Source: Selaginella tamariscina (lineage: Eukaryota; Streptophyta; Lycopodiopsida; Selaginellales; Selaginellaceae). From it: DNA of 64,000 nt. This document shows, in pieces, positions 21,194 through 64,000 of the stretch. A program made the position numbers and the translations under genes. A model generated the notes under the pieces. The model was given only the letters and a program-made list of their open reading frames with translations, ran no database searches and was not told the origin of the DNA. The stretch is from positions 151,740-215,739 of the forward strand of contig PUQB01000369.1 in the NCBI GenBank assembly GCA_003024785.1, in the 5' to 3' direction. Positions within the stretch are counted from its first letter, which is position 1, and each line of letters begins with the position of its first letter.

Positions 21194-21224
<31 letters not shown>

Positions 21225-24112: not shown

Positions 24113-24260
24113 TGTAAGGTCCACGTCTATAGCTACATGTACACATACTATTATTAGTGTAGTGGATTTTGATAACCGTCGAATTGGTTTCAATCTAGAC
24201 CACTCACTCCTGTATATAATCTAATACAATATACACATTTCTATATTCCAATCTCTCACA
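24113..24260 (+). repeat. 3' LTR of outer Ty3 copy 1
   Basis: This 148-bp LTR reads TGTAAGGTCCACG to CTCTCACA and is followed by AAGT. Nearly identical to 46915-47062. Confidence 0.85.
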
Positions 24261-25848: not shown

Positions 25849-25880
<32 letters not shown>

Positions 25881-26033
25881 GAATATATGTATATGTATGT
25901 TATACATCAATATAGCATATATGTTTAAACATACATATATGCACCCCAAGATATAAACACATTTTTTTGATATATATTGTTTCACGAACTTAAAGATGAA
26001 AATTTTATCTAACCCATCTTAATATATATGTTT

Positions 26034-26072
<39 letters not shown>

Positions 26073-28060: not shown

Positions 28061-28065
28061 TGCAT

Positions 28066-38182: not shown

Positions 38183-41100
38183 ATTGGTATCAGGAGCCTA
38201 TTCTCTACGGTCAGTAGGACTACCTAAAGTGTAGTGTATTTTAGGGTTTAGTTAGTTCTAAATTTTGAAGTACTCTATCACTTTCGGCTAATGTCTGAAT
38301 TCTGCGTGGAGAGTTGGTCCTGAGATCTATAACTCTTCAGAGTACACCTACTTCATAAGTGGGTGTGGGTTATGGACTTAGAAGGTAGCACTTGGAAGTC
38401 AGCTTCCAAGTTGTATGCCAGGTTATTTTACCTTAAGGTTGTCCAGGTTACTTTACCATATGTTTCCACAAGACGTGGCGTGTTAGTTTGTTCTGGCTTA
38501 CAAACTAAGTCTTGGAAGTGGATCATGTGATATGCTAAGCTTACCCATTATTGAAAATTTTTCTTTTTCTTTAAGGTGTTTGAATTTGGGATAACACATG
38601 ATTTGGAAACAGATAGTGTCCTTTGAGTCTTGGCTCATGTCAAGATTCAATATCGGATCCAACTGTAGTGTTCAAACGGGGAAAGACTTATGTTCAGAAG
38701 TGCATCTTTGACTTCGGGAGAAGGGGCATATTCAAACATAAGAATGAACACTACATTTTGACATAAAGTGTAAAATAAGCTCTTATTATAGTGCATGGTT
38801 CCGAGAGTGTAACTCTAGAAGCAACTATAGTGATGAACTTATAATACAATGGAATGTCAAATATTGACATATGATAAATATGTTAAGCAATGGGTTTGAA
38901 GATCCAATGTAGTCAAAGTATTGTCTGATGTTCGCAATATTTTGATGACGCTAGCTGCAAGTAACATTAGGTGGAATAGTTTACTAAGTTCAAGTCACCT
39001 AATTTGAACCTTAGTACAACTTGAAACCTTAGTTAGTTGTAAGCGCGCACTTGTATTCAAGTTAGCTAGCTCGACTAACTTGATTAAGAAGTTGTCTCAT
39101 AAGAGATCATAAGAGAAACTTCGGATAATAGCTAGAGAATTTCGTTATCTTACCAATATCGGTTTTGGGATAGATGGCATGATCTATTAGAAAGAGAAAT
39201 GTTGGAAACATACGTTTACATTTTCAGTTTACTGAGTAATGAAGGACTTGTATAGTGAAGGCGTTCGGCACACTTGCACATTTTCATTATTAACTCTTTA
39301 ATATTGAAATTTGTAACGTTGTTTACAATGTGGGCATAAGCTCTTGAACAAGGGTGATTCCTTAGTTAAGAAGAGCATGATTTAAGGTTCTCCAGTTTGC
39401 TTATTAACTAAGTAAAGAAACTTGCTTAGTTTGATAACTTATGTTGAGAACTATCAATGAGTCAATAACAAGTCGGGTATACATTTTGGGAGGTTTAAGT
39501 GCATGTACCTCCTTAAGATAGTTTGTATTCGGTGGGAATTAGAAGTTGGTATTGGTTTTCAATATCAATTTCATTTTTAGAGTCGAATACAATTATTTAA
39601 TAGATGGTTTCTTGACTTTGCATCATGGTCGCAAAATGCAGGCACTCAAAGAGCTTATAAAGTAGGTATCTTCAGTTCTTTGGAATATTGAAAAATAGAA
39701 CTATTCTTGACTCAAGGTTTGATAGTATTCCTTAGGTTAGTTGTTAGTTCTATCTCAAGGTTTGATGGTGTTCCTTGAGTTGGTTCAATAATATGATATT
39801 GTGTAGCGAGATTAGCACAAGAAGATGGTGTCCCTTCTTGATGATTGTAGTTCAATTCGTCCAATATCCGGTTCGAGAATTTGAGGTTTCCTATCACCTC
39901 ATCTGTGGAGATATTTATATTTTTAAACTTTGATAGAATTTGTGACAATCTTTTCAAGATTGGTTATAAATGACTTGTCAAAGTATAGTATATCTCTTCA
40001 ATATTGAGTTTGGAGCGCTCAATATCAAACTTGGTTATGATCACATGAGGTGGCCGTAAATAATATAAAGACTCAAGTGGATTTGAGTCTGACACTTTGG
40101 TAAGGCACTACCTTAGTGTTATAACTTGAAACGTGTTTTCAAGTTAGTTGAGAAATGAGACATTTCTCAATACATTGCTTGAGGGGCAATGTGTCACTTT
40201 CTGGATTGCTAGGTGTCTAGAGGAATAATGTATCTTATTCAATGTACTGAACTAGATATTTTATTCATGTTTGGGGAATCTATTGAAATATAAGGTATGA
40301 CTAAAACATGAAGTTGATCTAACACTTCAGTGTTATGATAGCATTTATGTGGAGGTTTATATCTTACTAAATCAATTAGATGAACCAGACACTAGTTCAT
40401 GATTCCTCTTAGTCTCTGAACAAAGTTCCTCGAAATACTGTCGTAACATTATATTTCCGTCTCAAAATTGAAGTTCGGTTCATGTAAACTAAGACCATAT
40501 CTATAATGTAGTTGTAGCATTTCGATAAATTGATATGATTGTAAGTTTATATCCACTAGTATAACAACTAGTTGATAAGCTTAGGATTTGAACGTTAAAA
40601 CGATCATTATCCATTCGAGAGTATCAATATCGAAATTGCGACTATTTATAGAATAAGGATTAGTTTTAAAAGATGTTTATCAAAACACTAGTTGCTTAAT
40701 TAGTGAAATGCTATACTTCGGTATAGTGTTGAAAACATTTACGAAATAGTTTAAGAGTTGGAAATAAATATAATGTTACGGAGGCGTACAGTATTACGAG
40801 TTCAGGGAGACTCTTATCGTGAAAACTAAGTTTTAAAATTCCGTATTTTGAACTTAGTACGATAAGGAGTTAGGAATTATTGAATGGCACCTAGTATGTT
40901 GTGCTCTTTGGAGAATGAGTACAATGAGGGTACTAATTAAGACAAAGATTGTTGATTAGGCATTAGAGATGGGTTGAATTTCCTGGTTTCCACATCGGTT
41001 TGTAAGAAAGGTATGTTAGCTTATCTGGTCCCTGAACTGGTCGGTGTTATGAAAGAGTACAAAGTTGGTTGTGAAAGAAATGGCAGTTGGCAAGACCTTG

Positions 41101-41828
41101 TTGTATACATGTGTACAGCCATGCGCCTCTGTGATCGCCTCTGGCCAGATTGACATGTTTACAAAGAACAGGGTTTTACGACTTGTACTCTTGTATCGGA
41201 AAAGAGCTTGATTCCGATAAAAGTCTCATACTTAGTCTGCGTAACTATATACTAATGAGAGATAGGTATAGTAGCAGACCCTTATGAAAAGGGGTAATGA
41301 GAAGCACCGAGGGATGCAGAGATGTAAAGCTATAATATCGTAACATGTGGGACCATTGGAAAATCAAAGAAATGCGAAGGTGTTTGGTCAAGCATTTGAG
41401 AAGTGCTTGTTGTGCGCTAGATGACAGAGGTCGTCAACATTTAATATTAAGGAATAAAGCAAGTCTTTATTTCTTGTTAACCAAGGGGCCGGCAACAACA
41501 CTAACTAGAGGCCTCCAATATAAATTCTAGTTAAGTAAAGAAATTAACCAGTGTTGTGTGCGTCGGGTGACAGACTTTGCAGACGTGCAAAAGGTCTCCA
41601 GGTGACTTCATGTCGCAGGTGGTGCCTCCGGCAGCTGGGTTTACGACTCAGTGAACGACGGTTCTGAAGTACTTGGTTTCGCGTAATGCAAGGGGGGTAA
41701 TAAATTATGTGAACTTTTGGCTGACTCCGCATAGAGTGATATGTTAGTTTTGGTTAGTTTTTCTAACATTATCTAGTCTTGGAGTTGGACGTCAACGAGG
41801 ACGTTGACATTTTCAAAGGCGGGGAGTG
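38183..41828 (+). other. Non-coding, hairpin-rich interior of LARD copy 2
   Basis: Collinear with 2823-6625. Stems kept include TTGGTATTG with CAATATCAA (about 39547-39569), CTCAAGG/CCTTGAG (39751-39776), AACTTGAAA/TTTTCAAGTT (40124-40146), TTGAGAAA/TTTCTCAA (40148-40171), CATTGC/GCAATG (40174-40192) and CTATAC-TTCG-GTATAG (40711-40726). No coding region. Confidence 0.75.
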
Positions 41829-43602
41829 TGTCATAGTTTTTACTATGACTCCTCTTTACTTTGGACGTTGACTGTTGTTACCTACTGGATTTGTGACGAA
41901 CCCTAGATGTAGAGAAACAGGCCCGCTAGTGCACTTGGGTATCTAGTGATGGTCCGGCCGGGTGTCGTTAGGTATTTGCAGAAACTCTAGGCGAAGCTAG
42001 CACTTCCTTTAGAAAACTCTCCCCCGTTTTGACGTCCAGGTTAGGGTTTTGCAAAGTAGCTTGTCAATAAGGGTTAGGGACACCCCTACCCTAGGGTTGC
42101 CCTAACCCACGCCCTAAACCCCCCCCTAGGGTTAGGTTTAGGATAGGATTGGACAACTCATTTTCTCTAAGGGCTAGCATTCAGTGCCAGCCCACTTACT
42201 CATATAGGAAAACAGGGGGGGGGGGGCTCCGTCACATAAATAAGGTAGAGTATACGTAGGAGAGCTCCTGGGTTCATGAATGAGTTCGTTGCTCTTCTGC
42301 CGGTGCAAGCTTCAGCTTGTGTCGTTAAGGTACAACCCTCTGTTGTGCCGCCCTAACTTCCAGATGCCAGGGGTACGTCCCACCTTCGGGGTAGCTTACC
42401 CTTAACGTTGGCGAATCCATGCCTGGGAGGTCTTGTCGGGATGCACGTTCCAAGAGGCAGAGGTTGAGGCTTGTCTCCAGCCTCCTCCTCCACGTCAAGC
42501 TAGGTGTAGCACTCACGGCCAAGCAAGGCACATCCGTGTCCTTGTCCAACTGTGGGTGGGATCTTGTTTGACAGGTTCACGTTACCTGGTTCCTGAGGGT
42601 TCATTGAGGGGTTCTAGAGTTGGCATTTAGGAACCACGTTTGTGGTACTTGGTGCAACTCTTGAATCTAAGGGCTATGGCATGATAGCCCACATCTTGGA
42701 AGGCAGTGTCACATGGGATGTGACACTGGGCTAAACGTCACATGGTACAACGCCCGAGGCACGCCCTTTGGGGTTATGTCATGGGCTTGTCGCTAAGGGG
42801 TTGGATACTCTAGCAAACAGGCATGCTTGTGCTTGCACTAGGGTGCTAAGCCTTGGGCATCCGCTCGAGGGAGGTTAGGTCTCGTAACTAGGTGTGCTTT
42901 GGCACACTTGGCTAGGGGAGTGTTCTCCTTGGAATCCAGGGGTTGAACAACCTAAGCTCATTAGCAGAAGCCCTTTCGTAAGGCACTCGCAAGGTCATGT
43001 GCTTAGGGTTATCCCAAACCTAGCCTTAGGGAGTTTGCTTAGCAGAACACTCGTGTCGCCTACGGCGCACACTCGTGTCCTCACTAAGTACTAGCCCTAG
43101 GTCTAGGGTGTAACTTGGCCACTCAAACCCTTAGGGGTTAGTCGTGGTTCAGGGTACCCCTTGTCGCCCTAAAGGGGTTGTACTCCCGGATGAGGGTGAT
43201 TCCTCAAGGGGTAAGTGATGCCTTAGCTCTGTCACGGGGTATGTGTGGAACACACGTCTCCTTGATGGGGGTTAGGGCATGAGCCTGTCTAGGTCTTCTA
43301 GGGCAAGACCCTAAGTCAACTAGGGTTATCCCTCAAGGGTTTTGGGGTAGACACTCTAGGGAGACTTAGGCTAAACCCTAAGTCAACTAGGGTTATCCCT
43401 CAAGGGTTCTGGGGGCAGACATTCTAGGGAGACTTAGGCTAAACCCTAAGTCTCTTGTCCACTTGGGCATTAGAGTCTAACCCTAGGGGTCGTTGGGGTT
43501 GTTCTGGGAAACTTAGCGTTGCTCACACAGGGTGATGACGCCAAATGGCCACCTGGCGCCACGTGTTGCCACGTGTTGGCCCTTTGGGTTAAAACTCTGA
43601 CA
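41829..43602 (+). repeat. 3' LTR of LARD copy 2
   Basis: A 1774-bp LTR; it shares the two-unit repeat (43308-43449) with the 5' LTR of the same copy. Confidence 0.9.
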
Positions 43603-44722
43603 GGTCTTGTCGGATTACACGTTCCAAGAGGCAGAGGTAGAGGCTTGTCCAGCCTCCTCCTCCACGTCAAGCTAGTGTAGCACTCACGGCCAAGCAAGGC
43701 ACATTTGTGTCCTTATCTAACTGTGGTGTGGATCTTGTTTGACAGGTTCACATTATCTTCCTAAGGGTTTCACAAAGGGGTTCTAGAGTTGGCATTTAGG
43801 AGCCACGTTTGTGGTACTTAGTGCAACTCTTGAATCTAAGGGCTATGGCATGATAGCCCACATCATGGAAGGCAGTGTCACATGGGAGATGTGACACTGG
43901 GCTAAACGTCATGCGATACAAAGCCCAAGGCATGCCCTTTGGGGTTCTAGCCAACAGACATGCTTGTGCTTGCACTAGGGTGCTAAGCCTTGGTATCCGC
44001 TCAAGGGAGGTAGGTCTCGTAACTAGGTGTGCTTTGGGCACACTTGGCTAGGGGAGTGTTCTCCTTAGAATCCAGGGGTGAACAACCTAAGCTCATCAGC
44101 AAAAAGCCCTTTCATAAGGCACTCGCAAAGTCATGTACTTAGGGTTATCCAAACCTAGCCTTAGGGAGTTTGCTTAGCAAAACACTCGGTTCACCTATGG
44201 CGCACACTCGTGTCCTCACTAAGTACTAGCCTAGGTCTAGGGTATGACTTGGCCACTCAAACCCTTAGGGGTTTGTCGTGGTTCAGGGTACTCCTTGTCG
44301 CCCTAAAGGGTTGTACTCCCAGATGAGGGTGATTCCTCAAGGGGTAAGTGACGATGCCTTGACTTTGTCATGAGGGTATGTGTGAGACACTCTCCTTTGT
44401 GGGTTAGGGCATGAGCCTGTTTAGGTCTATTGGACAGGATCTAAAGTCTACTCGGTTATCCTCTAAGTTTAAGGGATGGTCATTCTAGGGACTTAGGTAG
44501 GACTCTAAGTCTTCTACCTAATTGGGCCTCTAGGGTTCATGGGATGGTCATTCTAAGGGACTAGGGTAGGACTCTAAGTCTTTTGCCTAATTGGGCCCCA
44601 GAGTCAGACTCTTAGGGTTATCTTGGAAGACTTAGCGTTGCTCACATAGGGTGATGACGCCGAATGGCCACTTGGCAGCCACGTGTTGCCACGTGTTGGC
44701 CCTTTGGGTTAAAACTCTGACA

Positions 44723-47062: not shown

Positions 47063-47869
47063 AAGTGATATTAATAATTAGTATTCGATTATAATGATTT
47101 GAAGGATGGCTGGAGCATATGCAAACCCCTAACATCCATCTTTTGGAATCTCTTCTCTTTATGCAAGAATCTCCTAGTTGGTTATTCAAAATGGTTGGTT
47201 TAAGTTTAAAATAAATACACACACATGAAGTAATGACAAAGGACTTACACAAGAGGAACTAAATAGGTACGCATCTACAACAAAATGTGATTTAATTTAT
47301 TAAGTCAAGACAAATTATTAGACATGCCAATGAAAGCTTGATGGATAAAGATTCGTTGAACTACATATATGCACAAGGGTTTAGGGTTTTGACATGTGCA
47401 TGTATTTATCAAATTCTTTATAGCAACTATTGGTATTCTTGGATTCCGTCTTAACAACTACTCGCCTTTGTTTCAGAAACAAACACAAGGCCAAGCACTG
47501 CAATTCCTGCAAGCATCAAGAAAGTCCATACGAAGCTTTGTGTGATAATGAGAGTTTTGAAACTCAATTTGCATTAGCTGCAATTTTTTTCCTGCATATT
47601 CCAATATGGAACAAATATATTTATTATAATTTGTAATTCAAGAATCAAATTTATGTGAATAAACTTTAATTTTTTTCACCCTAAACCTTATGCTCAAGTG
47701 CACAGAGAGAGAAATTATATAACAATTGCGAATTGAGGACACGAGTATTTATGTATATGTATATATAATAAACTCAGATTTACGTGGTGAAAATGGAGGT
47801 GACATAACGAGGATGCCCGTTTTTTAACATCACTTAGATTCTACTGACTCAAATGCCTAAGTATATCTA
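47063..47869. repeat. Module M, 3' flank of outer Ty3 copy 2
   Basis: Nearly identical to 24261-25094. No gene recognised. Confidence 0.75.
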
Positions 47870-48588
47870 ATAGCGAGCACATTCTCCATGATCAAGACAA
47901 AATTGCAAAAAGTCAGAGATAACTATTTTAATCTATAGATGCATGTGTATATGTCAGAGATGATTTATACATGTAGGAATTAAATTAATGTATTTTCAAA
48001 TAAAATTCACGTTGCACATAATGTATACATGTCTCTGTAGTTTGAATTCAATATATTCATCTAATTCATACATGCATCCAATACATTATATACATGTCTA
48101 CATTCAACCACATATATAACATATATTGGGTACACATACACACAAATATATAAGTATAAGCTTCATTGCTTTCATGGCTTTGAGAATATTCAATTTGGTT
48201 TTAAAGGCTACTTATAAGTTGTTAAATGGTTGTAAAGGGAATGTTAAAAAGTTAATTCACATTTTCAAGTTTTGAAAAATAAATAATTTGAAGTAAGCAT
48301 GTGTGTGTGAAGTCATATGTATGTGTATGTGCACATGCAAAAGCTACATATATAATTGTTCATATATTAATGTAGACAAAAATGTTAAAGATTATGAGGC
48401 GAAATAACATACATGCTCAACGATGTACATTTTAAGTAAGTATTTGATTGGGACTCTTGTAATGCAAATTAATGCAATTCACTTGTACATTTTAAATAAA
48501 TATTTGTTTGGGACTCCGCTAATGCAAATAGTGAATTGCGTCACTCTTTATGCATCTATATACATATATACACAAGTGTGTATGTGTG

Positions 48589-48619
<31 letters not shown>

Positions 48620-50880
48620 ATATGAATATATGTATATGTATGTTATACATCAATATAGCATATATGTTTAAACATACATATATGCACCCCAAGCACTTAA
48701 GGATGAAAAATTTAGAAACAAATTATCTAACGCATCTTAATATATATGTTTCACATATAATTTTATTTATATATAATATATATATATTTATATGTATATC
48801 TATATGAAATCAAATTATTAACATATTCTTGTCTCATATATTAATTTATAATTAATAGTTACTAGCTCTTTGGTTCTCAAATTATGATAAAAATGCATTC
48901 ATTTTGTACACATACTCTCTTAACACTTGGGTAGATATATAAATCTTCAATTTTTATTTATTCTCATATTTAAGATAAATCTTTACTATATGGTATTTAT
49001 ACACAAAAGCCCACTTCTTGCCTTGCAATGTCTTTTAGATCTTTTATTTTTGTTGTAACTTATTTATACATAAACTTACTTTACAATGTTTAATTTATGT
49101 TGTAACTTATTCATAAGTCTAAAATTTTAAATATGAATAACATCAATTCTCTCCTTGTGGGTAAAATGCTTAAGTATTTTTATTAAATCGATAAGAACGT
49201 ATACGTAGTGTTAGAGTATGAGTAGAAGACTCTACCTTAGTTACCTTAGTCATAACCTAAAGTTTTTACATCTTGTTTAACCAAGCATACAATACGCTGT
49301 TAATAATAAGAACCTTAACTTTTGGGGTGCATACAAATACAACATACTCACATAAAATGTAAACTCTAAGTAAAGTTGAGTCTAAATCGTTTCATGTGAA
49401 TTTAAGATAATCCTTTATAAAGTTTTAAATTATAAATATATTCCTACATGATTTTGTAGTTGATGATTAATAAATATAATATTGTTTAAAGTGTAATTAT
49501 ATTTCTTAAAGTATCTTAATTCATGTTAAAGACACAAACAACAAGCTTCTTGTCTAAATCGTTTAGATGGTATGAATGGTTGAAAGAGTACATCGACCAA
49601 TAATATGACCTCATTATAGTCTTATAAAGGTTTTTTAATATTGATAAGAATTCACTTAATATGTAATCATTTGGGTTAAAGAGTTTTAGGATATGTGATA
49701 TATTTATTTGCTAAATAGTAATTTACATTCTTTCAAGAGAGATCCCATATAGCGGCTTCCCACCCATGATATGTCTATCGTACATACACCCTGAGAACAT
49801 CCCCTCCTTAGGGTTTTTCTTTCTCAAAAACTTAATCCATTTCTTGGTAAAGTTGATATTCTTGTTATACTTGTCATACTTGACACCAATCTCCCAGAAT
49901 TCGCCCTCTTCGTCAATAAAAGTTAATACCTTAGTGATTTCACACTTAGGCAGCTTTCCTGCACTCTTGCTGGGCACAACCATCTTTTTATGCAATACAC
50001 TCACATTGGTTGTAGTAAGTTGCTTAGTAAAGAGCTGCGACCACTTGGAAATTTCTGGTTCCAACTTGAACTTGGCTGATGAGTTGGCAGCCTTTGGAGT
50101 ATCTTCATTGATAAGCAAGGGTGTTGGTATCTTGTCTTTGTGACAAGGGACAATCTTGTTGTCAACATGTGGACAAGATTAAAATCTATACCATTGGTAG
50201 GGCATGGTACTTTGTCCTTCTCCAGTATAGGTTCAAAATTGTGAGGTGCACCGGGATGTTCTAATAAGTAACATGCAACATCTGCTAGTACCATTAACTT
50301 CTCCATTACGCCTCTAACCGTGATCTTCTTGGTTCTATATAATAAGAGAAAGGGAAATTGCAAAAGATCTTAAGTTAAAGTCCTATAGGGTTAGCCAAAA
50401 CAAGATCCTTCTTTTATATACACATGTAGTCCACGCACGTGGTGTACACATTTGCTCACGCGGGATCCACGTGGAGACCAGCAAAAAAAAAATTTAATAT
50501 ATTATTGTGAAAAATTTCACTAGGCACATAAAACTAGGGTATTTTGATAATGCAGTATTTTAAAGATATATGCTGATGGCTGGGGTAATGCACTCTTGGC
50601 TTCTTATTTTGGGGCATGTGTTAGTTGGCTTTGGGGTTGACATTGCATCCAATGACCTCGCTTTTCGTTATAGCGGGTTTCTCCTAGTGACTTGTAAGCT
50701 TAAACAAGTTTTACATTATTAATCTTGCTTTTACCAAGGTAACATATGTATCAAAATCGCGATCTAATATTTCCACATAAATAATAACTATATTATTAAA
50801 TATTTAAATCTTTGAATAAATTTATAATCCAAATAAAACTTTGTACTACAAAATTATTTCTATTTGATAATATATTCTGG
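47870..50880 (+). repeat. B3 module arm, third copy
   Basis: Direct copy of 25095-28060. Includes TG/TA simple repeats at 48575-48625, AT-rich sequence, a B3 pseudogene on the minus strand and its promoter, and the TTGACATTGCATCC block at 50636. Confidence 0.85.
49723..50306 (-). pseudogene. B3-domain protein, copy 3 (best-preserved B3 domain)
   Basis: On the minus strand from ATG at 50306. The whole B3-like domain is in one frame: WSQLFTKQLTTTNVS, MVVPSKSAGKLP, KVLTFIDEEGEFWEIGVKYD and FTKKWIKFLRKKNPKEG, ending LYGISLERM then a stop. Upstream, the frame is lost in the linker near 50170-50120 (after FNLVH). Because only the linker is hit, this copy gives the clearest view of the domain. TATA-like TATATAAAAG (minus strand) lies near 50411-50420 and CACGTGGATCC near 50466-50476. 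Confidence 0.75.
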
Positions 50881-51221
50881 AGCAGATGCAAACCCATAAC
50901 ATCCATCTCTTGGAACCTGTTCTCTTTATGCCAGAATCTTTAGTTGGTTATTCAAAATGGCTGGTTTTAAGTTTAAAAGGATTTATACAAAAGGAACTAA
51001 ACAAGTACGCATTTACAGCAAAATGTGACTTAATTTATTCAAGTCGAGACAAATTATTAGACATGCCAAAAGAAAGCTTGATGGATAAAGATTTGCTGAA
51101 CTATGAGCCTTATATGTACAAAAGGGTCTAGGGTTTTGACATGTGCATGTATGTATCAAATTCTTTATAACAGTTATGGGCTGGCAGCTGATTCCTTAAA
51201 CAACTGCTTGCCTTTATGCAA
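50881..51221. repeat. Module M remnant left of element X
   Basis: Matches 24310-24690 and 47110-47470 (GCAAACCC-TAACATCCATC, ATGGATAAAGATTTG, CAACTGCTTGCCTTT). The match ends near 51212 where element X begins. Confidence 0.65.
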
Positions 51222-51242
51222 GTTGTAACTAAAATGGGCATG
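51222..51242 (+). repeat. Left end of element X
   Basis: GTTGTAACTAAAATGGGCAT plus G, identical to 15062-15082. It lies within a few bases of the point where the module M match stops. The other end would be beyond 64000. Confidence 0.6.
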
Positions 51243-51716
51243 GCTATAGTCCCATTTCCTAATAATTAGCAATTTTAGCTATTTAATTAGCATTTTCTAA
51301 TATTAAAGGAATATTCTTTAGAATATATGTTTGAAAAGAGAATATTCTTTAGAATATTCTATTTTGTATTCTACCCTTTAATAAATTATAGCATTCATTG
51401 AACAAAAATTAATAACATTATAAAGTAGAATGTATTAAATTATATAATATATTGCCTAATATAACAATTAAGGAAGAGCATAAGAGGTACATTATATAAA
51501 TATTGATGTTGTTATTAAAATATAATATTAAATATAACATTATTAATTAAAAATTTGTAGTAGTAATAATATATATATAAATCCTATATAATATAGTCAA
51601 TCTTCCATATCATTTTTAAATTTATATAGTTAAGTATACAATTTGGTATTATTATTAAAGAGTTTATAATAATTATGAATATTAAATATATAATATTTTA
51701 TAATTTTGTAATTGCT

Positions 51717-54700
51717 TTAAGCTTCAAAAAACATACATTCCCTTGCAGTTTTGTTAATCGTGACTTTATCAACGCTTCTTGACATCCACCCATATCGAAT
51801 GGATTTAACATTTATAAACATGCTGGTCTTTTTGATTGGGGACCATGTTTTCTCTAGGCATCCATTATATCTTTCGCTCTCCTTCTCGTGTCGCCTTTTT
51901 TGTGGTTTGAACCATGCAACCTTAACAATACTATTTTTTGTGATTACTTCAAGTGTGTCGATAATTTGACCCATCCAAATAGGCTGATTATATGACGCAT
52001 CTGGAGTAATGAGAAATCATTAGTTTTTGAAGATCCTTGCAGCAATCAAAGTATGCTTTAGGTTTTTGGTTCCTTTGTCCAACAAAGTGTGGAGTTTGCA
52101 CTTCCACATCACTACTGGCTTTTATGTCGTTTGTGCTCAGTGATGTCATTTCAATCTCCTCTCGCCACCTTGTTTTAGGCCAGAAAGGTGTTGCAATTCT
52201 GTACTTGTGAAGTAGGCCCTTCCAACTCTCGAAAACAGTCTCCCAATAGTTGACCACATCTTATATAGTTCTGAGTAACCAGTTGCCTTATCAGAATTCT
52301 TTGGCATCGATTTTTGAACCCATGCCACATATTTTTTGATGCCATCAATAATAACCTCTTGTTCCTTGAGCTGGGCACTCAATGGAATAGGGTCTGGTTG
52401 TCCTTCTGGGAGAAGTGGCTTTCCATCCTCTCCACTTTTGAAGAGCATTAAGCCCTCTTTCGGTAACCACTCCTGCTCTGATGGCCGTAACTTGTACTGC
52501 ATAATAGGTATACCATCTCGTATGGAGAAAAAGAATTGTAGCGGCACAAGGTGACCAACTAAAGAATCACTCCCTTCTTTTATATACTCCTTGAGAAATT
52601 TTTTGAAGTCTGGCACCTCAGTCACAAGCAAAGCACAACTTTTTTTGGAGATGCAATTTTCAAAAAGATTCATCATATGCGGTAAGGTAAGTGCACTTGT
52701 CCTTTTTGTAGAGTTGGAGACCTTGCTGAAGAACGCATCAATATCTTCATGAGTGTGACCAACCATAAGGAAACTGAGCGTGATTGTTTCAAACACACCT
52801 TTGGCAACAAGCATTGACAAGTATGCTAGCACATATCTAGAAAATAAAAGTAAGTATGAGCTTGAGAAACCCTTAAGTAAAATGATTTACCTATTTTTGT
52901 TCTCGCCTGCACAATTATCCATCTGTAAAAGCAAATGACGAGGAAGCTTATTTGATGTTGAGGACACATGTACACTATTTGAGCTAGATCCCTCCACTGA
53001 ACCTGAACTCTCAACAGGGCCATCTGTTTTTTGTGCAGGTTGCTGACAATGCCTCTCATATTCCCAAGTAGCCTCAAGTGCAGACGTGTTCATGAGAGCA
53101 TTATGTAAAGGTTGAAGGTGTTGTTTCTTCACTTTGAGATCACTGATAGGACTTGTCTGTGAGTGGGCTTCAAGGTTTCTGAAACACATGGCTAACGACC
53201 CAATAGTGAAATTGGAGTCGCTAGACCAATGTGGAAGTGAAAAGTGTCCATATGACTCACAACCGTGTCCATGTGTTAGCACACCTGTCAATGAAATCGG
53301 AAGTTTCATGACATTTCCAAGGCACTTTGGTGTTGCAAAGAGCTTTGGAATGCTGGTCTTTGAATGATCCATCTTGTCATGGATCAAGCACAGGTACTCT
53401 GATGGGCGTGACACAGAAAGCATGCGGTGTGCATAGTACTGAGACCGGCAAGTTTGTTGTGCAATCATGTGGGCCTCCATCTTCCTTTGAATGGTAGTGA
53501 TCTCCACCAAGGTTTTTGCACAAGCCTCTGCAGCCTTCAATGATGTACAAGTGTCACACTTAGAAAAGCTAGAGTGTTTTGCAATCTCCACATCCTTAAA
53601 ATGAGTATTCCATATGTTGTTGAAGGTACCAGTGCAGATTGCTTGGAGCCCCATCAAACTGAGGCACTTGTTCACAGTTCAACAGTTTCAATTGAGTGTA
53701 GATTGAAGGTAAAACCTTGAGATTTAAGTAAAACCTTGAGATTTTCCCTGACCCCTGCATTTGTGGTTCGGCATTTGTGAGGCATCCTGTCTGCATTTGC
53801 TTCCACAAAAGCCTTGAGTATCTCTATGGCTGCCTGATGTGAGAGCGGGTTTTGACCAAGCCAGTGTTCCCATGAACTGAGGTTCGCGCTCCATCTAGCC
53901 ACTCATCCTCCGACGGTAGAACGTGGTCTTTGGGATCCCGTATATACTGTACCAAGCTTTGAAGCAGATGGCCACCTTATTAAATACCATGGATGTACTC
54001 TGATAACCTGTGTCCGAGGCCATTCCATCAATACACCCAGTTAGTGCAGCATATACAAACTCATGCCTTTGCTTTTGGGTGAGCATACGAAAACATGTCT
54101 ACATTGGGTAATTTCATTCCGGTCTGCCATCTGACAACACTTCTTCTTGCAACAGTCAATCGTGGAAATGCTCGTAACACTTTCGGAAGATGTAGGATCA
54201 TCTTTACCCTCTTGCTGAAACTTGCAGGGGAAGATCTACAACCCATGAATCGCCTTTTTCTTACAATAGGACCAATGCCAAGGAACCTCTTCAAATATGA
54301 TTGTTCTTCCGGGTTGTTATTATTGAAATCCAACCCAGAATATGTTGAACCATCTTGCCGTCTTAATTCAGATGTTCGCCACCTCACGAGGGATCCAGGA
54401 TACAATGTGCCATTAGGTGAAACCTCTGTCACAACTCACCCCGAAGTCGGACCCTAGTTTCTCTTCTGACACTGCTTCCATTGGATTTATAGCTGTGATG
54501 ATGCCTCTTCCGACTTCAATCTCACGAAGAAAGAGAATCACCTCATCCATCACAGCAGGCAAGCCATCATCTGGTAAACTCGTGCTACTATTTGTTTGTG
54601 ACTTGCATATTCTGTGTCAGCCTTGACTTCATTCAAATTCCACAATACAGGAGAACCCTCCTCAAATTCCATTCCCAGAACCTCAACATGCTTGTAAATG

Positions 54701-54836
54701 GTGTTCACCCATACGTACACAAAGATCCTTGGGCAATATTGTGACATGATGCATTATTATCTCGAACTTCCACAGTTCCAGTGCCAACTATCTCGTTGTT
54801 CCGAAGAAGACATACTTTATCTCCAGTATTAAACAT
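51717..54836 (-). pseudogene. Large transposase-like protein with VGHTHEDIDAFFS motif (frameshifted)
   Basis: About 950 codons on the minus strand from ATG 54836. In order: MFNTGDKVCLLRN and a GTGTVEV segment; FLGIGPIVRKRR; KQRHEFVYAAL and a possible helix-turn-helix GIPKTTFYRRR; a Cys-rich segment FSKCDTCTSLKAAEAC; CLIHDKMDHSKTSIP; LLQMDNCAGENKNR, then an intron at 52837-52890; FLMVGHTHEDIDAFFSKV; and a C-terminal GQIIDTLEVITKN-type small domain. The spaced acidic residues (HDKMD, MDNCAGEN, HEDID) resemble a DDE/RNase-H-fold transposase core, and proteins of this layout occur in repeated form in other eukaryotes, but I cannot name the family with certainty. Frames change near 54750, 54550, 54430, 53900, 53690, 52250 and 51980, so this copy is broken or carries sequencing indels. 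Confidence 0.6.
52837..52890 (-). other. 54-bp intron in transposase-like gene
   Basis: On the minus strand the donor AATAG|GTAAAT and acceptor TTTTCTAG|ATATG join GENKNR to YVLAYL in frame. Its retention means this copy did not come from a spliced mRNA. Confidence 0.75.
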
Positions 54837-54985
54837 ATTGTCCTGCACATAAATAATTGTATTATTTATGATATCTGTTTATGCAATATTTCTAAGAAAT
54901 CTGAATTACGGTTATTTAATAATATGCATATGCAATAATACATAATTATGTTTAGAGATAATATCTCATGTTTGATTAATACAAC
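54837..54985. other. Spacer between transposase-like gene and palindrome array 1
   Basis: AT-rich. The minus-strand sequence ends TTTATGTGCAG just before the ATG, which could be a splice acceptor of a leader exon or part of the 5' UTR. No TATA box is obvious. Confidence 0.4.
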
Positions 54986-54990
54986 TGATG

Positions 54991-55710
54991 GGCGGGATTA
55001 ATCCCGCCCACGAATCCCTCCGACGAGGAACGGTCGGCGGGATTAATCCCGCCGCCGACTCAACCCCTTCGGAGAGAGTCGGCGGGATTAATCCCGCCTT
55101 GGACTCCCTCCGACAAGGAAGAGCCGGCGGGATTAATCCCGCGCCTCTTCCTCCTCGGGGGGAGTCCGGCGGGATTAATCCCGCCGACTCTCTCCGACGA
55201 GGAAGGGAGTCGGCGGGATTAATCCCGCCGACTCAACCCCTTCGGAGAGAGTCGGCGGGATTAATCCGCCGGACTCCCCCGAAGGAAGAGCGGCGGGATT
55301 AATCCCGCCGGCTCTTCCTTGTCGGAGGGAGTCCAAGGCGGGATTAATCCGCCCACAATTCTTACGACGGGGAATGGGTGGCGGGATTAAACCGCACATA
55401 ACTCTCTCCAAAACTATGATTTCAAAGAGATCTCGGGATAAATCCTGTCCCCAAATCTTAAAACAGGGAAGTGGTGGCGAGATTAATCCCGCCACCCCTT
55501 CCCTGCCCTCCTAAATGGTTGGCGGGATTAATCCCGCCGACAACTCTTTCTAATAAATTCTGGTAAACTCTTCATCATGAGAAGGTTATCGACGGGATTA
55601 ATCCCGCCACTCTTTTTCAGTGGCGGAGAAGCATTGCCCGGGAGATGGTGGCGGGATTAATCCCGCCACCTCTTCGAAGAGGCGAAAAAGAAATGGCCGG
55701 ATTAATCCCG
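54991..55710. repeat. Palindrome array 1
   Basis: The 18-bp perfect palindrome GGCGGGATTAATCCCGCC occurs at 54991, 55036, 55081, 55168, 55212, 55292, 55521 and 55650. Near-perfect copies are at about 55126, 55254, 55337, 55380, 55476, 55590 and 55693. Spacers in the first half are about 25 bp and related (CTCCCTCCGACGAGGAA and its inverse TTCCTTGTCGGAGGGAG), giving a period near 45 bp. The array lies about 150 bp upstream of the transposase-like start codon. Frames open through it (repeating GGINPA or AGLIPP) are artefacts. Confidence 0.95.
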
Positions 55711-57935
55711 CCGCCCGGTTAACCTAGAATATTAAGTTAAAAGGATATTTAAACGGGATAAATCCCTAACGGAATATATTATAATCCTAATGCATTCCTA
55801 AACCCCTAAAATTGTAATTTTAAGAGAGAATGTAAGAGAGTGAATCTTTTAAGTATTTTTTAAATTTGTTTATAATACTTACTTGTAAACAGCACTGAAG
55901 GCGCCGTGCTTTCCTATAAAGAATAGCACCCAATTTAATCTCGCCCTGAGATGATCACTATGAAGAAAAAAGAAGATCTAAAGAGTGAAAAATACAGAAA
56001 TGAAGAAACCCTTGCCGGAGAAAGAACCAGATCTGAATTTGAGTGGGAAATTAAATGCATTTTCAAATTTACATGTCAGACCGACAATACATATGTCAGA
56101 AATTCAAATTTTTTTAAAAAGAACAGAAATAAAATTTAAGATGAGTTGACACAAATATCCGACACTCTGACATATATACTCTCCAGTTCCAATGAGTATT
56201 TAAAATTGCATTTAATGTTATTCAAGTGATTCAAGCTGTTTAATATTACGAAATTTTAGACTATATTCTACATTCTTAGTATTCAAGTATATTTATATTA
56301 TATATATATATATAAATATATACTTATACAATAAATAAATTGATATATTATTATGTATCATTTAAAATATATTCATAGTCTGTTTATTATTATTATTTTC
56401 TTAATTACTCGAGTATTTAGTTTTCATTTCCTAGTATCAATGGGATATTCTTTAATATTTTATTAATATTTGAAGAATATTCTAATATTAAACCTGATTA
56501 TCATAATTAAATTAGTCTTGTTCTTAATTATTGCAGTAATTATTCTACATTTGTATATATTAATGGGATTTTCTCAATTAATTTGTTATTATTTCAAGAA
56601 TATTCATGTGTTAAACCTTATTATCAATATTAAATTAATACACACTATGAACATATTTTAAATTATACATAATAATACATCATTTTATCTAATATATAGT
56701 CATATATAGTTTTAATAATATATATATTAATATCATTTCCTTAATTACTTGAGTAATTAATCTTCTTTATATTAATGGGATATTCTTTATTATTTTCTTA
56801 TTATTCCAAGAATATTCCAATATTAAACATGATTATGATAATTAATTTAGTTAATTATTTGAGTACTTAATTTACATTTGTATATATTAATGGGATTTTC
56901 TCAATTAATTTCTTATTATTTCAAGAATATTTCAATGTTAAACCTTTTTATCAATATTAAATTAATATATATTATTAAAACTATATATGGCTATATATTA
57001 GATAAAATCATATATTATTATGTATAATTTAAAATATGTTCCTAGTGTGTTTATTAATATTATTTTCTTAATTATTCGATGTTTGTTTTGCACATATATA
57101 TAAACACAATCATAAATTTACACACGCATTACAAGAACTTACAAAAACACATATGCACACACATGCACAACCCTAAACCAAACTGAAGAAATAGGTTGCT
57201 TCTTTATTGAAAACATCATGTTCAACGCATGTATGATATATGTACTCAATCTGTGTGACTGTATGTAACACATTGAATTTACATGTGTAATATTTATATT
57301 AAGCTTGTTGGGAGCAAACCCTAAACCCCCCTAATATGTAACACAATGAATTTACTCATGTAATATGTATGTATGTCTGTGTGTATACACGTGTGCATGT
57401 ATATATGTGTACTCTGTATGTATATATGTGTACTTTCTGTCTTCTCTCATACATACACACCATGCATGATCCATGTTAATATGTACTGTCTCTCTTCTCT
57501 CAAACATATACACCATGCATGATCTATAATATGTACTCGGTCTCTCTAATATTATGTACTAATATGTGTGTATGTCTGTGTGTATACACGTGTGTATGTA
57601 TATATTATGTGTATTAATATATGCAATGTGTATGTATGTATTGATACACATGAAACTTTAACACTCTCATGGACACACACATGTTAAATCCCTGCATGAT
57701 TTATATTTTTGAGGTGTATGTGATACACCCACGCACACGCACGCGCTAATAATATAATGAAAGAATATTTTTAGGGCGAATCTATATTTTATTCTTTTTA
57801 GGGTTTAAGTATATTCTCAGAAGGAATATTCTATTAGGGTTAATATATATATTTAATTCCTTTAGGGTTTAGGTATATTCTTAGGGTTTCAAGAGGCGGC
57901 GGCTGTGAAATCGGCGGCGGCGGCTGTGCACACAG
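55711..57935. other. AT-rich middle of element X, no gene
   Basis: No coding region is supported. It contains repeated AATATTC/GAATATT-type motifs and units with TATTAATGGGA-TATTCTTTA near 56435, 56775 and 56885. An inverted repeat of about 90 bp has arms near 56645-56735 and 56955-57045. Simple TGTATGTATA repeats fill 57350-57660, including two copies of GTGTGTATACACGTGTG. GC-rich GGCGGC runs occur at 57895-57925. Confidence 0.65.
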
Positions 57936-58239
57936 GTGAGATCTGTGTGTGTGTGTGTGTGTATGTATGTATATATGTATAGGAGTGTGCGTATAAATTT
58001 ATTTATTAGTTTTATCTCTCGCACACACACGCACACTCCTGTGTATGTATATGTGTGTGTGGGTGTGTGTTTGTTTATCTGTATGATTTTATTTGTTTCG
58101 CTCACACACGCATACACACGATATACATATACACATATATATATATACCTATATACATATATACATACATATATTATGTGTACCAGTATCTGTAAATTTT
58201 TTTTTATTGATCTATCTCTCCCACACACACGCACACTGC

Positions 58240-58302
<63 letters not shown>

Positions 58303-58367
58303 TATGTGTACCAGTATCTGTAAATTTTTTTTTATTGATCTATCTCTCCCACACACACGCGCACTGC

Positions 58368-58421
<54 letters not shown>

Positions 58422-59052
58422 ATCAATGCATATTAACAAATAGTATACAACACTAGTTTATATATATGCTTATATATTCATATGGGTTATATATCTATAT
58501 ACACACATATATATGTGTGTGTTTATCTGTATAATTTTATTTATTTATTAGTTTTATCTCTCGCACACACACGCACACTCCTGTGTATGTATATGTGTGT
58601 GTGTGTGTGTTTGTTTATCTGTATGATTTTATTTGTTTCGCTCACACACGCATACACACAATATACATATACACATATATATATACCTATATACATATAT
58701 ACATACATACAACACTAGTTTATATATATGCTTATATATTCACAGACTCTCTCTCTTTCTCTATAGATTATATATCTATATACACACATATATATGTGTG
58801 TGTTTATCTGTATAATTTTATTTATTTATTAGTTTTATCTTTCGCACACACACGCACACTCCTGTGTATATATATGTGTGTGTGTGTTTGTTTATCTGTA
58901 TGATTTTATTTGTTTCGCTCACACGCATACACACGATATACATATACACACATATATATACCTATGTACACACATATATTAGGTGTACCAGTACTGTATA
59001 ATTTTATTTATTTATCTATCTCTTGCACACACACGTACACTCCTATACATAC

Positions 59053-59083
<31 letters not shown>

Positions 59084-59125
59084 CACACACACATATATAT
59101 ATGTGTGTGTTTTTATCTCGCTAAC
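57936..59125. repeat. CA/TG and TA microsatellite block with longer tandem units
   Basis: Long (CA)n runs (58235-58280, 58370-58405) and (TA)n runs lie within larger units that repeat: GTTTTATCTCTCGCACACAC plus TTGTTTATCTGTATGATTTT recur near 58005, 58550 and 58835, and TTTTTTTTATTGATCTATCT recurs at 58195 and 58325. Reading frames here encode only Tyr/Ile/Thr/His runs and are not genes. Confidence 0.9.
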
Positions 59126-59133
59126 CCTCGAGC

Positions 59134-60620
59134 GGCGGGATTAATCCCGCCGCCGAGGCCCTTCACGCAGGCTATGGGCGGCGGGATTAATCCCGCCGCT
59201 CTACGACAAACCGAAGAGCGGCGGGATTAATCCCGCCGCCCATGGCCTGCGTGAGGGGCCTCGGCGGCGGGATTAATCCCGCCGCTCACCCATGCCCTGC
59301 GCGGAATGCGGCGGGATTTATCTCGCCGGCAATGGCCTGTGTGAAGGTTCTAATGGGCGGGATTAATCCCGCCGGATTCCGCGCAGGGCATTTACAGGGG
59401 ATGGGCGGCGGGATTAATCCCGCCGCTCGAGGCTCCGAGCCTGCATGGATCCTGCACGGAAGGCTAACCGCCTGCATGACATGTTGCGCGTAAGCGGCGG
59501 GATTAATCCCGCCGCCCAGGGAATTCACGCAGGACATGAACGGCGGGATTAATCCGGCCCCACGCTCTTCGCGGAGGGCGGCGGGATTAATCCCGCCGCT
59601 CAGGCACTTCCGCAGGATATAAGCGGCGGGATTAATCCCGCCCCCACCCATCCCTGTTCAAAAATGCCGCAGCCAATATATATGTGTGAGCGCATGATTT
59701 ACGAGAGGGCGGCGGGATTAGCCTCCGAACCTTCATTACCCGGTGGCGAGATTAATCTCCGAACCTTCATTACCCCATTGGTATGTTGAATCAATCCCGA
59801 CTAACTCTGTCTGAGACGGAGAAGGTTTACAAAATACCAATGGAGGGAACTGAGAAGGGTGGTGGGATTAATTTCACCATCCCTTACATGGTGGGCGGGA
59901 TTAATCCCGCCGCGTACGCATGCCCTGCGCGGAATCGGGCGGGATTTATCCCGCCGCCATTGGCCTGCCTGAAGGGCCTAGGCGGCGGGATTAATCCCGC
60001 AAGATTTCGCACAGGGCATTGGCGTTCGGCGGGATTAATCCCGCCGACTAAGGCCCGAGTGAAGGGCCTGGGAGGCGGGATTAATCCCGCCGACGCCAAT
60101 TCCCTGCGCGGAATCGGGCGGGATTATCCCGCCGCCATTGGCCTGCCTGAAGTGCCTAGGCGGCGGGATTAATCCCGCCCGATTCCGCGCAGGGAATTGG
60201 CGTCCGGCGGGATTAATCCCGCCGCATAGGGACCGAGTGAAGGCCCTGGGCGGCGGGATTAATCCCGCCGAGTCTTCAATGCCTGTTGGAGGAATGAATC
60301 CCGCCACCCTTCCTTTTTCTCCATTGGTGAGTCGGACCAATCCCAAACGTTTCTGTCTGAGACGTAGAAGGTTTTCAACATACCAATGGAGAGAATTGGG
60401 AAGGGTGGGAAATTCATTTAACCATCACTTACATGGTGGGCGAGATTAATCCCGCCTCCTTTCTGGAGTCACTGAAGGGGTGTGAGAAATAAATCCTGCC
60501 CAGTTCTCTCTGAGACCGAGAAGGGTGGCAAGATTAATTCCGCACTCCCGTTCAAGGCCTCCAGAAAGGTGGCGAGATTAATCCCGCCCACTCTTTCAGG
60601 AGGCATTGAAGGGGTGGCGA
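59134..60620. repeat. Palindrome array 2
   Basis: GGCGGGATTAATCCCGCC is perfect at 59134, 59180, 59220, 59266, 59356, 59407, 59496, 59580, 59625, 59894, 60028, 60074, 60162, 60206 and 60252. Degenerate copies are at about 59310, 59542, 59710, 59938, 59984, 60117, 60437, 60569 and 60605. The spacers differ from those of array 1: GAGGCCCTTCACGCAGGC and inverse, and ATTCCGCGCAGGGAATT types, themselves partly palindromic. A 130-bp segment is duplicated (about 59765-59895 and 60310-60440). The array ends about 350 bp before the ParB-methyltransferase start. Confidence 0.95.
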
Positions 60621-60739
60621 GATTAATTTTCCATGTGAATATATATGTGTATTAGTATATATAAGTTGCATATCTCATTTTATTTACTTTTATCATCTTA
60701 TCATAATATTTCGAGTAAAAGCTAGGAATCTATGTAAAA

Positions 60740-60822
60740 CTGTCCAGAGCTCACATTTGTGGTGGTTCTAAAACGAAATGTTATCTTTCTTTTGCACTAA
60801 CACAAATGTGAGCTTCGGACAG
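60740..60822. other. Long hairpin between array 2 and ParB-methyltransferase gene
   Basis: The arms 60740-60761 (CTGTCCAGAGCTCACATTTG and two more) and 60801-60822 pair at 20 of 22 positions around a 39-nt loop. The arm length and loop are like a microRNA precursor or a small foldback element. There is no flanking duplication. Confidence 0.65.
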
Positions 60823-60884
60823 TTAATTACGTCTACTTCTCTCTGTGTATTATTTTTGTATATTCGGGTTTATACAAGTGTGTG

Positions 60885-60968
60885 TGCGTTTTTATATAAT
60901 TTATATTTATAGTGTATTATTTTGCAGAAGGACGATTTGATCAAACAAGGAGATCGAGTCATTAGTAT
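60885..60968 (+). promoter_or_regulatory. Candidate promoter/leader of ParB-methyltransferase gene
   Basis: TTTTTATATAATTTATATTT at about 60889 could be a TATA region. TATTTTGCAG at about 60919-60928 looks like a splice acceptor, so the ATG at 60969 may lie in a second exon. Confidence 0.35.
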
Positions 60969-62350
60969 GGAGTCGTCGTCAAATTCTGGGTAAGAATTAA
61001 AATAAAATCTGTTATACTCGGATACTTGAACTAATCATTTTTGTATTCAGATGTGGAATTGAGTGACATTAAAGACAAGAGCAGGAGAAGAGATGGGCAG
61101 GGGGATTCTGGAATCAACTTGGCCATATTTTAAGATAAATGGGAAGCGCATTGGAGCAACCATGGTTGCTGTCAAATTAACCTCTGTCACATCTCATGGA
61201 CAAGCAAAACAATGGAAAGTAGATTCGCTAGTCAAGCACCCGAAAGCAGGCTGCGAACCCAGATTGGACGATGCTCGACAGATATGCCTTGTTCCATCCA
61301 ATGTCACGTTCTCGGATCCAGAGGTCGTCAGTTACAACATTAATCTCGGGTGGTTTTGTCGACTTGTGGATAATGACGTTCACGTGTTCACTAATGATGT
61401 TGACCTTGGAGTTCTTCTTCAACTCAACGAAAGCCCATCTATGGAGGGGATCCATCTGGATGTTACTTCATCGATCGAGTAGGTGTATTGTCAGGAGATA
61501 TTGCTTCACAATACAGAAAATCAGCAAGTGGAGCAATCTTCCCTCTTCACATTGAAGAAGAACACAGCGACATCATAAGGAGATTGAGAGGGTGGCTCGG
61601 TCTCAGGTTCTCTACAGATCACGTTCAATTTGCTTAGGAAGCTTGGGAGCTGGAAGAGTGTGCCGAGAACACTAGAACAGCTGCAGTCGGGGATCACACA
61701 TGTTGATTCGGATCGCAAAAGAAAATCATCAATCGTTTTGTCAGCTGCACCTGTGGCATCTCATGCTGCAATAAGTCACAAGGAAATGATGTTGGATGAT
61801 AAGATTTATCCTTGTAGGGTTAAATATTGCAGCGTCAACCCAAACTTCAATTACAGGCCACTCAACCAGGAACGTGTAGCTGAGCTCATGGAGAAGATGA
61901 AGGACGACAATTTTATACCGTTCCACATAATGCTGTTTTGTGTCCATACTATGAAAGAAGAAGGGTGCTGACAAAGTCTGGATCACAACACCAGAACAAC
62001 TCATGAAGATTCAGACGGAGAATAAAAGATCTATCAAGTACTACATCATTAGTGGCCAGCACACAATAACGGCAGCCCAACGACTTCTCGATGAACACAA
62101 CAAAGGAACGATGGCAACAAAACTTTCCGAGCATACCCGTGAGAAGCTGACAAAAAGATCGGCGTTTTTAGCTAAGCCGAATCTCACAATCGAGCAGTAC
62201 CATAAGTTATCGGCGGAATGGGACGCTGCCGACACCAACCACTACAACAGCAAAATATGGGAGAAGTTTAAACACACGCGAGCCGTGTGGGAATCTCTTC
62301 AGCGACCACAAAGAGCTACCGCAGGGAATACACAATCTGCGGAATACCGG

Positions 62351-62411
62351 GTAAGCAAATTGTTTGGGCGGGATTTATCTCGCCGGTATATTAATCTGTC
62401 TTTTTCCTCAG
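62351..62411 (+). other. 61-bp intron containing a degenerate palindrome copy
   Basis: Donor CCGG|GTAAGC and acceptor TTCCTCAG|AGAG join AEYR to RVEEIAAVDF in frame. Inside, at 62367-62384, is GGCGGGATTTATCTCGCC, two changes from the array palindrome and identical to the variant at 59310. Confidence 0.75.
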
Positions 62412-63254
62412 AGAGTTGAAGAAATTGCAGCAGTTGATTTTGCCCAGGTGGGCGGGAAGGAAACATCATTTCTGATGATGTTGATTTCTTGCCCCGAAGA
62501 TAGGATCTTTGCCAAATGGTTGGGGATTATGGAATCCTTTTCAAAAGGAACACTGAAGAAGAAGCAGACAAGTGAAGGGGAGCCCTCAGAAAAGTCTGCA
62601 AAGAAACCCAGTAAGACGCCGAAGGCTAAGTCTGTTCAATCTACAAAGGATGTAGACAACGATTTCAAGCTCACATGGTTGAAGCCTTTAAATGGAACAA
62701 CGATGGAGGAGATGGAAGTCTTGGCTGATTTGGTGATCGATGGCAAACTACAAATTAATAACAGCAGCCCAACCTCTCCTTTTCATCTCAAGGCAATGGA
62801 GTTGAAGACGGTCAGGCATTTCAAGGAGTGGTTGGGAATACACTGCCACAAACTGGGTTGGACCTCGACTTCAACATATGAAGAGGTAGCAAATATTTGC
62901 ATGTGACGAACGATGATATGCTTGTCGAATGGGTGAACCAATCGGAAGATCTAGGCAAGAATCTATTGCACGCCAACGCCAAAAAGGAGAACATTGGGAT
63001 GACGCCTTCTCTTATGGCAGTCCTTCAGCAGCGGAGAACCGAATTGAACCTTATAAAGGAGGATGCTACGAATCACGACAAGCCCTACAGATGTTTGTTG
63101 TTAGATTCGGAGACTTTATGGGGTAACATCACTGCTTGTAGGAAACCGTTTCAATTGTTCGTGATGGATCGGCGGGTGTCAAAAAATCTTTCGACAGATA
63201 GGGCACTAGAGGATCTGGTGGAGAAACTTAGCCGTGCAAGCATATACATAGAAG

Positions 63255-63307
63255 GTATTTATTATTGAATTCATGCTTGCGCTCTTCACTGATACCTACT
63301 TTTTCAG
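63255..63307 (+). other. 53-bp intron in methyltransferase-like part
   Basis: Donor GAAG|GTATTT and acceptor TTTTTCAG|GTATTT join IYIEG to IYFLILAHV in frame. The partial copy has an intron at the same position (about 18657-18709, minus strand). Confidence 0.75.
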
Positions 63308-64000
63308 GTATTTATTTCTTGATTCTTGCTCATGTCACCGATACTTTTGCCTTCGCCTTCGCCAAGAAGAATAGACATCGTTGGACAGGATTTTATATGA
63401 ACGATGCTAATCCCAAGTGCATTGATACTGTTGTTCACTTGGTTGTTAGGAATGCGCCAAACAATTTCAAGCTTCCAAATGACTGGCCAGGCATCTGTTT
63501 GCACTCCAACGGCCCTGAACCTCCATCCGATACACCGATAGGTATGAGTGACGTATTCGGCAATGTACGTTATCCAAACATTACAAGTCAAGCGGCACGG
63601 AGCATCGTCAACTTGATCAGGGGTCCTCACAGTGATGCGTGGGTTTTTGACTACTGCACTAGGGGGTCCGTCTTGAAGGAGTGTTACCTTCGGCATACAT
63701 GTGTGTTTGCCGTTGAGAAGGATAAGACCATGGTTGAGGACCTGAACAAGTGGATAGATTGGGTCTCAACTGAGTACCCCAACGATCCATAAAGGCGTAT
63801 TTGAGAAAGTTCCCTCCAGATAAGTGCGATAGCTCTGAAGGTGAATCTGGTTCAATCTCGGAGTCTGAGAACGAACATCAATCAGATATTAGACCGGAAG
63901 TTATCTCGAGGAGTACAGAACATTCGCACACTCCAGGACCCATGGAAACATCAATAGAAGATGCAGAAGATCTTGAACCATCTCACAAAGCGCTTAGACC

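Follow-up and report, generated by a model that had tools for sequence, protein, structure and literature searches.

We analysed a stretch of 64,000 nt (the window) from contig PUQB01000369.1 of Selaginella tamariscina, whose genome assembly comprises 300.7 Mb in 1,391 contigs, and found that it almost certainly carries a DDE DNA transposon composed of terminal inverted repeats, a gene for a DUF7869 transposase, a divergently oriented second gene, and two arrays of one 18-bp palindrome. This classification follows from its ends, the target duplications, the predicted transposase fold, and the copy number. For the system as a whole, the best explanation is a cut-and-paste DDE transposon whose intronic palindromes serve as sites of self-regulation, to which we give about an even chance. 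A previous interpretation made from the letters alone (the sequence-only reading) had proposed that two genes, one of them for a transposase, and the palindrome arrays make up one mobile system, and this part of it was borne out. The observation itself was even understated. The terminal inverted repeats, the target duplication, the intronic position of the arrays, a domain of the NLI-interacting-factor (NIF) type, and the genome-wide copy number had all been missing from the earlier interpretation. All genome counts given below refer to this one genome, and counts of genes are lower bounds.

Searching the window for the palindrome GGCGGGATTAATCCCGCC with up to three mismatches resulted in 37 matches compared to 0.01 expected, a number reached in 0 of 100 shuffles, which upholds the earlier description of two arrays between two divergent genes (Table 1). 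Genome-wide, the exact 18-bp pattern was counted 27,128 times and a reversed control pattern not once. For a sample of array loci, a hundred listed palindromes, all located on the contig listed first (C1), led to eleven loci, and the stretch following the window was added. The 12 array loci are the window copy (W), copies E1 to E8 and E10, and two in the stretch of E9, with E4 and the stretch after the window partly consisting of N. The sequence-only reading had regarded genes and arrays lying apart as evidence against it, and here the outcome was mostly favourable: one or both genes lay beside the array at 11 of the 12 loci, with both present at 8, the exception being a mostly degenerate site cluster that closes the E9 stretch (L029), where neither gene was found. 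Copies E2 and E3 have kept a single gene each, together with its own array. The distance from the transposase start to the nearest palindrome was 153–155 bp in eight of nine copies (about 137 bp in E3), and that from the start of the second-gene query was 439–445 bp in seven of eight (478 bp in the window copy), while array size differed among copies.

The position of the array was also tested elsewhere in the genome. A profile search with PF25273 (300 matches, with the top ones listed; 150 of 4,249 candidates scored) provided 20 DUF7869 hits on 20 contigs, namely the first ten and ten lower down, and at each of them a stretch of 351 bp was searched where the spacing in the window and E5 predicts the array. 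Allowing up to four mismatches, at least two palindromes were present in 16 of the 20, one in a single case, and none in three; at least one exact palindrome occurred at 13 of the 20. In the E9 stretch, L028 and L029 showed scattered, diverged site clusters in which the symmetric variant CCGGATTAATCCGG appears five times, and judging from this variant the palindrome may shift coherently in other subfamilies. A fossil of the second gene at about 3700–5600 of locus L019 (29–50% identity) had no repeated palindrome of at least 12 bp nearby within the fetched stretch.

Pairwise alignment of the copies revealed terminal inverted repeats of 27 bp, alike at 25 of 27 positions and with ATGCA ends. The left end of the element lies at 51216 and not at 51222 as given before. 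The right end ATGCACGTTGTAACTAAAGTGGGCATG (reverse complement), which pairs with the left one, was found by collinearity with other copies 5,812 bp beyond the window; exons encoding the NIF domain likewise fall outside the interval proposed previously. The copy in the window is about 18.6 kb long, partly N; among six C1 copies having both ends, five measured 13,554–14,796 bp from end to end, and E10 about 14.4 kb in the alignment.

Target duplications were sought in 26 candidate copies, comprising 20 further end pairs plus W, E5, E7, E8, E10, and E1; E6 was excluded, since its flanks are those of E7. Eleven candidates in whose fetched stretch no left end could be recognised were dropped, leaving 15. 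An exact 4-bp duplication was present in eight of these (CAAT, AAGA, TAAT, ATTG, GAAG, AAAA, ATAA, and TTAT), W and E5 matched at three of four positions, and five copies showed no match, compared to 0 of 210 in a control of mismatched (cross-pair) flanks. Other lengths were rare among the 15 copies, with one case of 2 bp, two of 3 bp, one of 5 bp, and none of 6–8 bp. Genome-wide, 1,551 and 1,609 end-like sequences with up to two mismatches were counted on the two strands (3,160 in total); since the left and right ends differ by two positions in the search pattern, this number includes both ends and corresponds to about 1,600 element equivalents, counting truncated copies. The element is apparently a recent as well as an abundant DNA transposon. 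A second, 5'-truncated copy lies in the window itself, where 17976–19196 is 90.9% identical to 62781–64000; it also contains a 115-bp tandem repeat at 16373–16931 flanked by direct repeats of 88%. Copies E6 and E7 (L014–L017) are situated about 19 kb apart with the same flanks, so that here the element was probably duplicated along with its surroundings.

Though the frame of the left gene is disrupted by single-base indels in the window copy, its exons are open in other copies (Table 1). A protein search resulted in 146 relatives of the same family (DUF7869) from the liverwort Riccia, molluscs, echinoderms, and metagenome or transcriptome contigs, the best showing 51% identity and those of Riccia 32–35%. 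The liverwort relatives, like a B3-like open reading frame in the window (see below), are indicative of a host from the green plant lineage, although DUF7869 occurs in animals as well. Four aspartates (D482, D660, D700, and D702) were invariant across 45 aligned relatives and are placed in RNase H strand order in the predicted core, and the predicted fold matched Mos1, Rous sarcoma virus (RSV) integrase, and TnsB. This structural model identifies the product of the left gene as a DDE transposase whose fold is RNase H-like, predicted to carry an additional Tudor/KOW-like domain at its N-terminus and a BAH-like one at its C-terminus. This enzyme would act at the 27-bp ends and generate the 4-bp target duplications, an activity suggested by structure and footprint. 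Variants common to at least two copies were distributed over codon positions 1, 2, and 3 as 14:13:25 (one-sided P 0.02) and single-copy variants as 28:33:17, showing no third-position excess (P 0.99). Differences fixed between the subfamilies amounted to 5 synonymous and 12 nonsynonymous ones, with a ratio of nonsynonymous to synonymous change (pN/pS) of 0.65 based on few sites. A diverged DUF7869 piece of 39–50% identity was also noticed at about 1650–2170 of locus L025. The literature searched did not mention the DUF7869 family, and finding one of its members here in a transposon with defined ends and a 4-bp duplication suggests a function for it.

For the second gene, variants common to at least two copies revealed a clear third-position excess (36:36:67, one-sided P 0.0002), and single-copy variants did not (18:22:26, P 0.18). 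The lack of such an excess among single-copy variants of both genes is as expected from recent decay or sequence error. The two subfamilies are separated here by 40 synonymous and 34 nonsynonymous fixed differences (pN/pS 0.23), and the second gene is under purifying selection. The sequence-only reading had named ParB and methyltransferase for it, neither of which found support: the N-terminal and middle part of the protein matched nothing in Pfam, PHROGs, PDB sequences, or 5.8 billion proteins. The likeness to ParB/sulfiredoxin stays at the level of a motif seen by eye (SGQHT..AA), with no match in Pfam, PHROGs, or PDB sequences, and the place of a possible DPPY, which we take to be the motif expected of a methyltransferase there, shows DRRV in the two copies within the window.

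Exons lying further downstream in the same orientation revealed an NIF (FCP1-like) phosphatase domain in Pfam (38.3 bits with a cut-off of 21.8, E 1.3e-9), the query being taken from copy E5, with two breaks filled by X and the preceding exons included. The last exon of this region, taken alone (15343–15927), gave no NIF match in Pfam; it is present in eight of ten other copies searched, in some of them partially. From exon order and splice-like joints, we infer that the NIF exons are part of the second gene. The catalytic motif of NIF/FCP1-like phosphatases is DxDx(T/V), from which the DVNGV found in both copies read departs. The right gene would encode an accessory protein under selection that probably ends in a domain resembling phosphatases of the carboxy-terminal domain (CTD).

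In regard to the arrays, both are enclosed by conserved splice signals. The donor of the transposase leader intron (CAA/GTAAGT, at 55882) was intact in nine of nine copies and its acceptor (TGTGCAG, at 54843) in eight of nine, those whose alignments reach it. For the second gene, the donor CACAG/GTGAGAT at 57936 kept GTGAGAT in eight of eight copies despite flanks that have diverged between the subfamilies, the preceding G being lost in one, and the acceptor TTTTGCAG was intact in eight of eight. Thus, both arrays and one further site are probably intronic, the arrays being placed by these signals in the leader (first) intron of each gene. The further, single site is always the variant GGCGGGATTTATCTCGCC, identical in all eight copies reaching there and in both subfamilies. 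Given the near-fixed distance of the arrays to both genes and a conservation of the sites above that of their spacers, the simplest account is that they are protein-binding sites for the co-regulation of both genes.

This conservation was evident from the 36 window sites, 23 of which are perfect, with a mean pairwise identity of 0.94 compared to 0.65 and 0.61 for the spacers of the two arrays (0.52 and 0.57 after shuffling). A neutral palindromic minisatellite that arose by replication slippage and is merely carried by the transposon would fit the variable array size and the degenerate units at the array edges, but would explain neither why the sites are better conserved than the spacers nor why two separate arrays and a single intronic site recur in matching positions from copy to copy in many cases; we regard it as improbable. 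Analysis of a larger set from the window and the other array loci (305 sites with up to three mismatches, 124 perfect) showed the central TTAA to vary no more than the stem, and altered symmetric pairs to be uncompensated in 265 cases and compensated in 9, both results being flattered by the choice of sites by likeness and the three-mismatch limit. As the 18 bp are conserved between diverging spacers and compensatory changes are rare, it seems to be the sequence and not a hairpin shape that is kept. Accordingly, hairpins in the RNA of the pre-mRNA introns, controlling splicing or feeding small-RNA production, appear very improbable, even though the sites seem to lie in transcribed introns and each could form a stem of 7 bp: a loop conserved no less than the stem and the rarity of compensation speak against them, the latter somewhat less so given that the three-mismatch limit disfavours compensated pairs. 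The commonest changes, C14 to T (36 of 305) and its mirror G5 to A (29 of 305), exceed transitions at CpG positions and could reflect base modification at this position or a variant that is tolerated.

Spacings below 100 bp were regular, with 138 of 244 measuring 44–46 bp. Among 1,004 spacer pairs, 62 direct and 23 inverted ones reached at least 80% identity (0 and 0 in shuffles), and one inverted pair in the window is identical across 27 bp. Spacers in both orientations would be in line with arrays that serve transposition itself, as internal sites for transposase binding or recombination that pair the ends or cause inversions between sites. However, a palindrome makes any two sites both inverted and direct repeats, so that ordinary recombination or template switching accounts for the flipped spacers; moreover, the sites of the window copy start 3.8 kb from the left end, and no cluster was seen at a terminal repeat in the fetched copies. 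A role in transposition is therefore quite unlikely.

Alternatively, the palindromes may represent host transcription-factor (E2F) sites that the element has multiplied for its expression, e.g., in S phase. Each half contains TCCCGCC, which we take to be the core of plant E2F sites, so that two cores stand head-to-head around TTAA; in addition, intronic enhancers near the transcription start are common in plants, and the near-fixed distance to both genes would suit host-factor sites as well. On the other hand, the palindrome has retained its symmetry over all 18 bp, central TTAA included, which is more than one half-site would require, and it has AAT before CCCGCC, where E2F sites prefer TTT. 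Altogether, we consider E2F sites unlikely.

Self-regulation remains the reading that we prefer for the arrays, which, as putative binding sites for this purpose, we rate a little short of an even chance. The palindromes in both leader introns would be arrays of sites for a sequence-specific protein, through which the element may regulate the transcription of both of its own genes, most likely by means of its own accessory protein. That this protein is the putative palindrome binder is favoured over the transposase or a host factor, though in itself the assignment is tentative. Still more speculative, and rather unlikely, is a mode of action in which the accessory protein, bound to intronic arrays just downstream of both promoters, slows or stops RNA polymerase II via its CTD-phosphatase-like domain. 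If such a brake on elongation existed, copy number would limit the supply of transposase.

Compared to known systems, the nearest analogue, judged by description, is the set of TNPA-bound repeats of En/Spm. There, the accessory protein TNPA binds subterminal repeats and can block RNA polymerase, and the subterminal repeats of Tgm are palindrome-forming, according to the excerpts considered (PMC2613891). Both these CACTA elements and the present one feature a short, palindrome-forming motif repeated in arrays and an accessory protein (DNA-binding in En/Spm), but those of En/Spm are described as subterminal and ours are internal, in leader introns. Membership in CACTA/En-Spm was rejected, as the element shows ATGCA ends and a 4-bp duplication in place of CACTA ends and 3 bp. 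In its 4-bp duplication, the element appears Sola-like: the Sola excerpts describe 4-bp target duplications (AT-rich in Sola2 examples), terminal repeats that vary in length, a DDD transposase, elements that in some cases exceed 15 kb, and an occurrence in moss (PMC10741241, PMC9033089, PMC3627910). The likeness, e.g., to Sola1 of the moss Physcomitrella, concerns the duplication and the acidic triad and was drawn from descriptions of these elements; palindrome arrays or an NIF-domain gene do not appear in these excerpts. Fungal KDZ, Plavaka, and other transposons carry a TET/JBP gene and so likewise combine a transposase with a second enzyme gene, but differ in their transposases and duplication lengths (8 bp in Zisupton, 2–3 bp in Plavaka), and the part of their description considered contains no palindrome arrays (PMC12730594). 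Judged from titles and the beginnings of abstracts, we found no earlier description of such an element in the literature. With palindrome arrays in both leader introns and many near-identical copies in one genome, it is a clear case in which the control of a transposon by its own repeated sites can be put to the test.

Table 1. Features of the transposon and its truncated second copy in the window
Feature	Position	Strand	Remarks
Transposon, part inside window	51216-64000	.	flanking 4-mers CTTT/CTTG, 3 of 4 matching
Left terminal inverted repeat ATGCAAGTTGTAACTAAAATGGGCATG	51216-51242	+	boundary common to aligned copies
DUF7869 (DDE) transposase, coding region	51717-54836	-	PF25273, E 1e-25 and 3e-13
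Transposase exon 2	52836-~51717	-	open exons in other copies
Transposase intron	52890-52837	-	kept in 9/9 copies
Transposase exon 1	54842-52891	-	ATG at 54836; open exons in other copies
Putative 5' leader intron of transposase gene	54843-55882	-	GTAAGT...GTGCAG; contains array 1
Palindrome array 1	54991-55712	.	between the two divergent genes, transposase side
Putative 5' leader intron of second gene	57936-60927	+	GTGAGA...TTGCAG; contains array 2
Palindrome array 2	59134-60588	.	second-gene side; degenerate copies on to ~60633
Second gene	60928-64000	+	ATG at 60968; continues past window; several exons; purifying selection; N-terminal and middle domains without family match
61-bp intron of second gene with single variant palindrome GGCGGGATTTATCTCGCC	62351-62411	+	palindrome at 62367-62384
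Second, 5'-truncated element copy	15056-19196	-	3' part of second gene, NIF-region exon 15343-15927, right terminal repeat 15056-15082

Apart from the transposon, the window harbours further repeats. A large one at 19198–28086 has inverted arms (19198–21407 and 25872–28086) of 95% identity and another copy at about 47851–50876, in which an open reading frame (49723–50178) resembles a B3 DNA-binding domain with 29.7 bits, below the Pfam cut-off of 30.1. Several large repeat units of about 84–98% identity occupy 1002–8321 and 36381–44722 and are, by their look, probably related to retrotransposons.

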